Virus record (IMG/VR): IMGVR_UViG_3300045922_000558
Location: 1 to 20,263 of that record
Reading direction: 5' to 3' (one strand)
Length of the DNA: 20,263 nucleotides
From: a virus
Notes under the pieces: model-generated
Databases searched by the model: none
Told to the model about the DNA's origin: nothing
The model's input: only the letters and a program-made list of their open reading frames with translations
Made by a program: the position numbers and the translations under genes
Part shown: in pieces, positions 17,541 to 20,263 of the stretch
Layout of the letters: each line of letters begins with the position of its first letter
Numbering within the stretch: the first letter of the stretch is position 1

Positions 17541-17990
17541 GGCAGCAGCACAATGCTCATTCTCGCTACCGCTTCATTCACATAGAGCTGCCGGTCTATC
17601 CGCAGTACAAGGTACTTGCTCCTATCCCTTTTGCATTTTAATACACCAATTATAAGGCTTGCGCCACATAATTGGTTTAAGCACCATCCCATTCATTACG
17701 CTTGATGACTTTGTGTGATGCCATTGCTTTAGCCTGTGCACTATCACACAAAGAACATCTTCACTATGCTTGGGATGTTGCCGTATAAGGACACCCCAAA
17801 ACTTTGGGGTGATGCTTATAAGGACGGGTGTCGGGCGGTGGGCGGTGGTGGTGTGGTGATCGTTTTTCATATTTCTACGGATTTTCGGGAGAAATTTCCA
17901 AACGCGATAGGGCGCTGCGTGTCTCTACTTCGTGTGTGAACTACTTTTTATCATTCAAAAAGTAGGCAAAAACTTGATACAGCGATTTTT
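17541..17990. other. Non-coding, hairpin-rich boundary region after the terminase gene
   Basis: No convincing gene lies here. The DNA is visibly richer in GC than the phage genes and carries a run of inverted repeats: GGCAGC/GCTGCC (17541/17587), ACCAATTAT/ATAATTGGT (17645/17668), GCACCATCCCA with one mismatch to TGGGATGTTGC (17681/17771) enclosing CTTTGTGTGAT/ATCACACAAAG (17709/17743), CACCCCAAA/TTTGGGGTG (17792/17803) and CTACTTTTT/AAAAAGTAG (17941/17957). The last pair resembles a repeat I recall from Bacteroidota chromosomes. The stretch may be the prophage/host junction, a structured RNA, or both. No tRNA is recognisable. Confidence 0.5.
17681..17781. repeat. Long imperfect inverted repeat (nested stem)
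   Basis: An outer 11-bp arm (one mismatch) at 17681-17691/17771-17781 encloses GATG/CATC (17704/17756) and a perfect 11-bp arm CTTTGTGTGAT/ATCACACAAAG (17709-17719/17743-17753). This gives about 25 pairs in a folded strand of about 100 nt with internal loops. Confidence 0.7.
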
Positions 17991-18074
17991 AACACTTAAT
18001 TAATTATGTGAAATATTGCTTATATGCAATATTTTTTGTACTTTAATAACTGTAAATCAATTAATTAAGTGTTA
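17990..18074. repeat. 16-bp perfect inverted repeat with nested hairpin
   Basis: TAACACTTAATTAATT (17990-18005) is repeated inverted at 18059-18074. Inside lies a second perfect pair, AAATATTGC (18011-18019) with GCAATATTT (18026-18034). The inner element has the size of a repressor operator. The right outer arm ends on the first base of an ATG (18074). It could be an operator, an attachment or recombination site, or the end of a miniature element. Confidence 0.65.
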
Positions 18075-18696: not shown

Positions 18697-18910
18697 ATGC
18701 ACAGGCTATCGGATTAGCACTTCGGCAGCACTTGCACACCGGCATCTGCTTTGCGAAGTGGCGGTTTTGGAACACCACAGCTTCAATATAGCACTACCGT
18801 TAATTAGGATTACAAGGGTTCAAATTAGCACTTCACCCGCCATTTTGCAAAGCAAGTGTTAGCGGTTCGGGCTTCTCCGCTTTTAGAAGTTCAACTTTAA
18901 TAATAAGAAA
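18697..18910. repeat. Intergenic spacer A with inverted and cassette-boundary-like repeats
   Basis: This 214-bp non-coding spacer holds TGCTTTGCGAAGTGGCGG near 18747 and a diverged inverted copy, CCGCCATTTTGCAAAGCA, ending at 18854. TAGCACTT (18826) pairs with AAGTGTTA (18854), and ATTAGCACTT occurs twice directly. Its end (TTAGCGGTTCGGGCTTC ... TTAGAAGTTCAACTTTAA) aligns by eye with the two spacers further right. Confidence 0.6.
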
Positions 18911-19150
18911 ATGTCAAACGAAAATTACACAACCTACGGGGAAGAATGGAAAAAGGAAATGTCAAAACTTCCAAAAGCAGTATTGATTGATATTGCATCA
19001 AAAATTGGTCAAGAAAAAGAAAGGCTCGAAGAACTTGCTGATTTACGCCTTGCTTGTCGAAATTACTTAATGGGTGTTCCTGCCGATGAAGTAACTGTTG
19101 AAGACGCTCTTGAAAGTCTTGGTTATGGTCGCAACGGATTAGGTTCATAG
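18911..19150 (+). CDS. Unknown small protein (79 aa)
   Basis: This 79-residue protein (MSNENYTTYGEEWKKEMSKL ... YGRNGLGS) is helical, with a middle LIDIASKIGQEKERLEELAD and a C-terminal GVPADEVTVEDALESLGYGR that could be a small HTH-like motif. I do not recognise it. It stands alone between two repeat-bearing spacers, the arrangement of a single-gene cassette. Confidence 0.55.
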   Translation: MSNENYTTYGEEWKKEMSKLPKAVLIDIASKIGQEKERLEELADLRLACRNYLMGVPADEVTVEDALESLGYGRNGLGS

Positions 19151-19216
19151 CCTGACCGCTAACGGTTTGCAGCCTTGCGAAGGCGGGGTTTTTAACCACT
19201 AAATTTAATTTAAAAG
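19151..19216. repeat. Intergenic spacer B, cassette-boundary-like repeat
   Basis: The spacer contains CTAACGGTTTGCAG, the core GCCTTGCGAAGGC (19172-19184, a 5-bp stem around GCG), then GGGG, AACCACTAAATTTAATTTAA and the next ATG. It aligns with spacer C (19787-19845) over nearly its full length. Confidence 0.6.
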
Positions 19217-19786
19217 ATGAATAATAATATTACCACAGAACTATCAACCGAAGACGTGATCCCCCGCTTTTGCAAGGGTGCTGTTATGCCTTCGTTGCAT
19301 TCAGGTAAGCACATTTTGGACTGCTGTTGTGGCAGTAGAATGTTTTGGTTTGATAAAAATAACCCAGCTGTTTTATTTGCTGATATTAGGGAATTGGAAA
19401 CCGAATTGTGCGATGGAAAAAAATTAAAAGTAAAACCTGATTTGATTGCAGATTTTAGAAAAATGCCATTTGAAGACAACACTTTTAAAATGGTTGTGTT
19501 TGACCCTCCACATTTACACAAGCTCGGGCAAGACACTTGGTTAGCTCAAAAGTATGGTGTATTACTCCCAAGTTGGGAACACGACATTAAGGAAGGATTT
19601 GAGGAAGCAATGAGGGTGTTACAACCATTCGGAACATTAATTTTCAAATGGAATGAGGTTCAGATAACAACAAGTAAGATATTGAAAATTATAGGAGTAC
19701 AACCGCTATTCGGTCATCCCAGCGGAAAACACGGTAGAACAAAATGGATCGCATTTATGAAAGGGGTGTCTTGCAATGGGGTATAA
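19217..19786 (+). CDS. SAM-dependent methyltransferase with DPPH motif
   Basis: This 189-residue protein has a class I methyltransferase fold. KHILDCCCGSRMF (residues 31-43) is the SAM-binding motif I region, LFADIRE (53-59) is the acidic strand after it, and VVFDPPHL (93-100) is motif IV. DPPH resembles the (D/N)PPY motif of N6-adenine and N4-cytosine DNA methyltransferases and occurs in a family of phage and mobile-element methyltransferases. No target-recognition domain is visible, so the target could be DNA or another nucleic acid. Its stop codon (TAA, 19784-19786) is part of the repeat that begins spacer C. No restriction gene is adjacent. Confidence 0.75.
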   Translation: MNNNITTELSTEDVIPRFCKGAVMPSLHSGKHILDCCCGSRMFWFDKNNPAVLFADIRELETELCDGKKLKVKPDLIADFRKMPFEDNTFKMVVFDPPHLHKLGQDTWLAQKYGVLLPSWEHDIKEGFEEAMRVLQPFGTLIFKWNEVQITTSKILKIIGVQPLFGHPSGKHGRTKWIAFMKGVSCNGV

Positions 19787-19845
19787 CGATTCGGGGCTTT
19801 GCGAAGGCAAGGGATTAGAACCAATAAACTTTAAATTAAGAACGA
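19787..19845. repeat. Intergenic spacer C, cassette-boundary-like repeat
   Basis: CGATTCGGG is followed by the core GCTTTGCGAAGGC (19796-19808), then AAGGGATTAGAACCA and TAAACTTTAAATTAA up to the next ATG. The order and most of the bases match spacer B and the end of spacer A. Confidence 0.6.
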
Positions 19846-20263
19846 ATGATTGATAGAAATACAAATGCTCAAATAACCGATGAAGCCCTTGCTTTTGCAA
19901 AACCGATGTTAGCAGAAGTGCCTTTGGTAGTTTCGTTTTCGGGTGGTAGAACTTCAGCTTTTATGGCGAGAGCATTGCAATTAACATATGAAGGTAAAAG
20001 AGATTTGATTTTCGTATTCGCTAATACTGGAAAAGAAAGAATTGAAACACTTGACTTTATTAATGAGTGTGAAATTCGTTGGAATTTGAATTGTGTTTGG
20101 TTGGAATATGATTTAGTTGACGATAAAAGCACTTTCAAAATTGTAGATTATAATACAGCCTCAAGAAATGGCGAACCGTTTGAAAAAATGATCGCTAAAT
20201 TTGGAATACCAAACAAAGCCTTTCCGCATTGCACAAGAGAATTAAAACAGCAAACAATCACAA
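19846..20263 (+). CDS. PAPS reductase-like PP-loop protein, 3' end cut by window edge
   Basis: The frame from ATG 19846 runs off the window end, giving at least 139 residues. VVSFSGGRTSAFM (28-40) is the PP-loop of the adenine nucleotide alpha-hydrolase superfamily. FANTGKE (58-64) and FPHCTRELK (about 125-133) match phosphoadenosine phosphosulfate reductase-like proteins common in phages and mobile elements. Family members reduce PAPS, or activate substrates for sulfur or base modification (DndC, for example). Which applies is not shown. It follows the methyltransferase behind another copy of the repeated spacer. Confidence 0.75.
   Translation, partial: MIDRNTNAQITDEALAFAKPMLAEVPLVVSFSGGRTSAFMARALQLTYEGKRDLIFVFANTGKERIETLDFINECEIRWNLNCVWLEYDLVDDKSTFKIVDYNTASRNGEPFEKMIAKFGIPNKAFPHCTRELKQQTIT

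Follow-up and report, generated by a model that had tools for sequence, protein, structure and literature searches.

An integron-like cassette array in a phage record and its probable link to non-IntI tyrosine recombinases of Bacteroidota and their phages

The window under study, the whole of a linear IMG/VR virus record 20,263 bases long, closes with a run of genes and hairpin sites that is very likely part of a phage-borne, integron-like cassette array, moved by a non-IntI tyrosine recombinase of Bacteroidota and their phages. The record is probably a fragment of a larger genome, and among the phage proteins it encodes are a primase, a head protease or major head protein, and an endolysin. 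As proposed here, a cassette would consist of one hairpin site and the gene after that site, and a single strand of the site would fold to an asymmetric hairpin with outer AAC/GTT, a stem of about 19 bp, and a loop of about 75 nt. A non-IntI tyrosine recombinase of the Bacteroidota/phage group would then excise and insert the cassettes, with exchange at TAA|CG (CG|TTA in the attC convention), and newcomers would be taken in at a short attI-like site next to the recombinase gene. Phage cassette genes point towards the recombinase, and many have their start codon inside the site; the methyltransferase and PP-loop cargo probably serves escape from host restriction. The best reading of the array system as a whole is that of an integron variant new to description, carried by chromosomes and phages.

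Three hairpin sites in the window

Three related elements, each an imperfect palindrome of about 125 nt, lie within the final 1.5 kb of the window. With R1, a covariance model trained on 60 relatives, among them sites B and C of the window but not site A, site A (18738–18861, + strand) scored 93.7 bits, site B (19161–19286, +) 94.6 bits, and site C (19785–19911, +) 110.7 bits, with E-values of 4e-20 to 4e-24, covariance-model E-values being rough. Nothing in the rest of the window scored above 23 bits, and the matches of 22–23 bits were sites A–C on the opposite strand. The initial annotation had described three spacers with a common order of elements (TAACGgtt, GCTTTGCGAAGGC, a G-run, and ATG), and we found this order in all three. 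These spacers are indeed the 5′ halves of the repeat, though the repeat is longer than was supposed and runs on to CCCgcTTTTGCAAAGCnnnTGTTA; the 3′ half of sites B and C lies within the downstream coding sequence, and the next gene starts in the loop.

Site A, an attC-like hairpin, has a degenerate 5′ triplet (ACC for AAC) and no gene start inside, and copies more than 90% identical to it precede unrelated genes in loci L034, L035, L042, and L043. Here, we also noticed that a leader of about 30–50 nt past the outer box (GCGGTTCGGGCTTCTCCGCTTTTAGAAG) is common to this site type in L033, L034, L035, L036, L041, L042, L043, and the window, with different genes downstream. Cassette 1 has its R′ box, GTTAGCGGT, at 18858–18866 (+) and carries an ORF of 79 aa (18911–19150, +), the product of which gave no Pfam or PHROG match; its R″ box, ACCGCTAAC (19155–19163, +), is the perfect reverse complement of the R′ box. 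The cassette 2 gene, for a DNA methyltransferase of 189 aa (19217–19786, +; phrog_954, E 1.5e-76; Methyltransf_11), begins inside site B, which holds its start codon and first 23 codons. The end of this cassette, GGTATAAC with the crossover region TAA|CG (19780–19790, +), partially matches its own start (GTTATGCC at 19283), at four of the seven scored positions after GTT. That a stop codon forms part of the repeat, as had been remarked, holds for this gene, the methyltransferase TAA being the TAA of TAACG in site C. Site C in turn holds the start codon and N-terminal leader of the cassette 3 gene (19846–20263, +), which is PAPS-reductase/PP-loop-like (PF01507, E 5.6e-5; phrog_424, E 6e-21) and is cut by the contig end. 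Further upstream, at 17990–18074, a perfect 16-nt inverted repeat (TAACACTTAATTAATT...AATTAATTAAGTGTTA, 53 nt apart) precedes an ORF of 80 aa; it has TAAC/GTTA ends without the asymmetry of sites A–C.

The site plan reads 5′ AAC-G-spacer-GCTTTGCGAAG-gc-GGG, then about 75 nt, then CCC-gc-TTTTGCAAAGC-T-GTTA 3′. Compensatory change in the stem is strong, with 96% of stem cells paired and 13 pairs altered on both sides in the alignment of 60 copies, as against 40–56% pairing in slid alignments, and with 0 of 500 shuffles equally good. Single-sequence folding of the three window sites gave no significant z against shuffles (−1.9, −1.5, and +0.7), and as these values are unremarkable, the evidence for the site structure is the covariation. 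Because three non-Watson–Crick pairs are fixed in the stem (two G.T and one C.A), the two strands of the site are not equivalent; moreover, the spacers are asymmetric (about 5 nt versus 1 nt). The site direction used throughout this analysis is the bottom strand in the attC convention, and of 410 distinct sites, 295 fold better on this strand, the one shown. Like attC, the sites are imperfect palindromes with AAC/GTT ends and strand asymmetry, but they miss the R-box consensus (RYYYAAC/GTTRRRY), for the window boxes GTTAGCG and GTTATGC and most other boxes compared depart from RRRY. The box match extends about 10–14 nt, often with one mismatch at a fixed position. The earlier statement that the ends are unlike attC is thus right about the GTTRRRY consensus and wrong about the outer AAC...GTT triplets, which are present save for the ACC of site A. 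A nucleotide search with site A found no match among phage records and one weak match, from Flavobacterium, among plasmids.

Distribution, cassette ends and gene polarity

A search of relatives for the spacer had been advised, and our pattern scans found the element in dozens of viral contigs and, on the bacterial side, in over 120 genome stretches, so the resemblance of the spacers is no chance effect. Among the matches listed, 113 of 120 genome loci come from records named Bacteroidota. R1 matched all 24 seed genomes, with 3 to at least 146 copies each, the upper figure being that of the complete chromosome of SSA2 (CP058707), where the copies extend over about 0.5 Mb and those listed are on one strand (G015 C1, 3475215–3982497). 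In an even draw of Bacteroidota, scored at no more than 17 candidate sites per genome, 80 of 198 genomes were positive (one or more copies at E <= 1e-8), and four of these were seeds of the model; none of 60 genomes in a Chloroflexota control draw was positive, the seed MAG excepted. The cassette system is, then, common in the chromosomes of Bacteroidota and in their phages. A few sites also occur in MAGs labelled Chloroflexota (G034), Pseudomonadota, Chlorobiota, or Ignavibacteriota (L094, L066, and L091), and these may reflect contamination or true transfer.

An integron cassette begins with bases complementary to those at its own end, since its site is intact in the circle and becomes divided in the array. 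Such complementarity of start and own end was found here too when the seven bases after GTT were scored against the reverse complement of each unit's own end. Among the units from chromosomal arrays and the window, 59 of 65 matched at six or more of the seven bases (5.5% among mismatched pairs), and among phage units 52 of 80 did so (3.4% of cross pairs). Overall, the rule held for 106 of 181 distinct units, where 1,000 permutations gave a mean of 6.6 and a maximum of 16, and the two flanks of any one site mostly differ from each other. About 40% of units have no end match, some of them likely owing to missed intermediate sites.

Unit boundaries are visible where a unit recurs. In SSA2, a 669-bp unit and its upstream site are present twice (99% and 98% identical), with identity running from the AACG of its own site to the AACG of the next, and with outer flanks and next sites that are unrelated or just generally alike. 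Similarly, a 2,527-bp unit is near-identical in a Flavobacteriales MAG and a Cytophagaceae MAG that have unrelated flanks, a case that MAG binning errors could affect, unlike the 669-bp one. The AACG edge corresponds to CG|TTA in the attC convention, which is the canonical integron crossover position. To judge from these recurring stretches, gene-plus-site units move as units. With matching unit ends and units that recur among unrelated neighbours, the proposal of an integron-like yet different shuffling system in Bacteroidota is supported.

The longest ORF of chromosomal units runs against the site direction used here in 90 of 101 cases, which is the classical attC arrangement, whereas in phage units it runs with the site direction (26 of 27). 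Of 119 distinct phage sites, 25 contain an ORF start from which the reading frame continues for at least 60 codons past the site. Since these 25 ORFs cross the stem in three different frames (14, 10, and 1 cases), the shared constraint is on the DNA, not the peptide. The leader encoded by site C is close to MIDRNTNVQITDEALAFAKPML, and variants of this leader head five different proteins, each in a context of its own; sites 89–94% identical to site C occur in L003, L022, L028, and L158, where the leader is joined to four other proteins, and in this family DNA identity stops just past the outer box. By sequence inspection, phage cassettes of this type carry many DNA methyltransferases (with DPPYG or SPPY motifs), PP-loop enzymes, and HNH-like proteins.

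The array recombinase and the attI-like motif

No recombinase is encoded in the window, where the contig stops inside cassette 3, so the tie of the window array to a recombinase rests on its relatives, and the window phage itself may have or use such an enzyme. As the initial annotation had envisaged, related arrays do carry a tyrosine recombinase, of non-IntI type and adjoining an attI-like motif. These recombinases, of 270 to 600 aa, are located at one end of the arrays. A motif search found one in 16 of 20 chromosomal regions, at the same end relative to the sites, and in one region (L188) a single weak site of 39.6 bits is also on the far side. With an alignment of the 16 chromosomal recombinases as query, 80 phage loci were found; 37 distinct phage recombinase loci hold sites, and all 129 matches are upstream and co-directional, with none behind. 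Read in the attC convention, the arrays have the recombinase at their 5′ end, as in integrons. Because the pairing was found by seeking both, the linkage of recombinase and array, though not the side, is partly selected.

The defining feature of IntI is an additional domain (PMC9668308), and a group of ‘integron-like’ recombinases is said to conserve this insertion not fully (PMC8138268). Against the IntI model TIGR02249, the array recombinases scored 178–219 bits (cut-off 265), and their spacing from K..DR to H.LRH is 53–59 residues versus 100 in IntI. In 42 of 43 element-bearing genomes no protein was above the IntI cut-off, the exception being one Chloroflexota MAG. On bit scores, motif spacing, and this count, IntI was rejected as the local enzyme, and no IntI-type integrase with the additional domain was found at the arrays. 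Judged from sequence, the array recombinase is without the IntI-specific insertion and is not an IntI. Five of six tested array recombinases scored highest on the Xer model NF040815. In our tree, IntI, XerC, and XerD each form a single clade, with an uncertain deep branching order; of the 19 phage array recombinases used, 18 group in one clade, and those near chromosomal arrays are spread over several, so the array enzymes need not be a single co-evolved family. A structure model of a phage recombinase (pLDDT 84.6) gave integron integrase 2a3v and XerA as best fold matches, which does not separate the two.

Some array recombinases have N-terminal additions. That of a Runella array (L186, 8616–9728, −) forms an in-frame fusion with an SSB domain (PF00436, E 1.5e-30) and has a shortened SAM-like domain, and the SSB fusion could be functional. 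Recombinases of 526–592 aa (L194, 3376–5124, −; L216, 739–2319, +; L199, 2549–4327, +) have one to three N-terminal repeats, the profile of which gave the HARP domain of SMARCAL1 as best PDB match (E 0.006) and matched HARP weakly in Pfam. As clues to single-strand use, the SSB and HARP-like domains are suggestive only.

Provided that the end rule holds for the terminal cassette, its end should show where cassettes enter. Of 35 phage arrays tested, 13 have this end 51 or 52 bp upstream of the start codon of the recombinase, and a conserved motif follows (consensus TACTATATGTANAAA, 17 junctions aligned). In chromosomal arrays, a AATATACGAA-like sequence follows the terminal end within about 310 bp of the recombinase, though this motif, based on ten sequences that were picked once they had been inspected, is less certain than that of the phages. 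The motif forms no hairpin, and an attI is expected to be without one. Computationally, therefore, a candidate attI adjoins the recombinase gene where the first cassette begins.

Known systems, rival explanations and significance

The likeness to integrons with IntI, attI, and attC, such as the Vibrio superintegron and class 1, extends from the hairpin sites with outer AAC...GTT triplets to the gene-plus-site cassettes with complementary ends, the same crossover position, the attI-like site beside a tyrosine recombinase, the long arrays, and the shuffled cargo. In contrast, the recombinase here is without the IntI insertion and outside the IntI clade, and some have SSB or HARP-like N-terminal domains; the stem core is strongly conserved in sequence; the outer boxes are longer and misfit GTTRRRY; and the phage cassettes are reversed in polarity, with the start codon in the site. 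While the array recombinases are simple Xer-like proteins (as XerC/XerD and archaeal XerA), they branch apart from the XerC and XerD of the same genomes and adjoin cassette arrays. In integron surveys and other literature (preprints and most subscription journals being outside the scope), we found no account that brings the arrays, sites, and recombinases together in one system.

Clusters of attC without an integrase have been described in phages, including the Bacteroidota phage P12002L of Polaribacter, for which one of two attC predictions was recombined into attI1 by IntI1 (Qi et al., 2023; PMC9892861). The P12002L CALIN resembles the present arrays in its Bacteroidota phage setting, methyltransferase cassettes, AAC-spacer-stem...stem-GTT plan, and gene polarity. 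Eight sites of this plan scored above threshold in P12002L (0.3 in shuffled sequence), and units gp35, gp53, and gp54 follow the matching-end rule; R1 found no match there, and the stem sequences differ. With the same site plan and several units obeying the end rule, P12002L is probably a relative of the present system, unlike it as published in that a candidate recombinase is assigned here and none there. Some stretches of this phage (NC_028924, our L308; 32491–32694, 39515–39709, and 31117–31313) are hairpin-ended and enclose a whole small ORF in the loop.

The P12002L recombination by IntI1, the only published case for sites of this kind, together with the report of integrons in Bacteroidota (PMC9024848), lends some credit to an ordinary CALIN, in which normal attC cassettes would be moved by IntI in trans and the nearby tyrosine recombinases would be unrelated. 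We consider this improbable, as nearly all element-bearing genomes (the 42 of 43 above) are without a match above the IntI cut-off; instead, a recombinase lies beside the array, on a fixed side and at a set distance from a conserved motif. Moreover, IntegronFinder 2.0 lists for Bacteroidetes proper, where there were earlier In0 elements only, one complete integron, in Salinibacter (PMC9024848).

Passive shuffling, with dispersed palindromes among which genes are moved by homologous recombination and no dedicated recombinase, would fit sites that are often alike enough for homology and in some cases have different genes. Yet recurrent units end at AACG even though their far-end sites are just 53–62% alike in most pairs, and neither the own-end match nor the attI-like motif is expected from homologous recombination, which makes this account very improbable. 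To explain the repeat as a transcription terminator, RNA element, or MITE between genes is scarcely credible: such an element could well be an intergenic hairpin co-transcribed with genes, as in the phage arrays, but an Rfam search of the sites matched no family, no T-run follows the hairpin in the window, each flank pairs with the far end of its gene unit and not across the hairpin, and phages and chromosomes have contrary gene polarity with respect to the hairpin. The two findings that the initial annotation had named as telling against a cassette array, a general terminator and a conserved gene order, did not materialise, since the sites behave unlike the former and the gene partners show no sign of the latter.

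Integrons are regarded as rare in Bacteroidota. Returning to the integron-like array, we lean towards a broader reading, in which it belongs to a second integron class that has recombinase groups, attI-like sites, and attC-like sites of its own, present in roughly 40% of Bacteroidota species and in their phages, and missed as tools require IntI; in phages, the site would double as a translation start region, so that one leader peptide stands on unrelated proteins. If true, this would give a large phylum and its phages a means of gene capture on a par with the Vibrio superintegron, operated by an enzyme that lacks the domain by which integron integrases are thought to be defined, and the role of the IntI additional domain and the origin of integrons would become directly testable. 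It also suggests a route by which phages may gather methyltransferases and similar genes.
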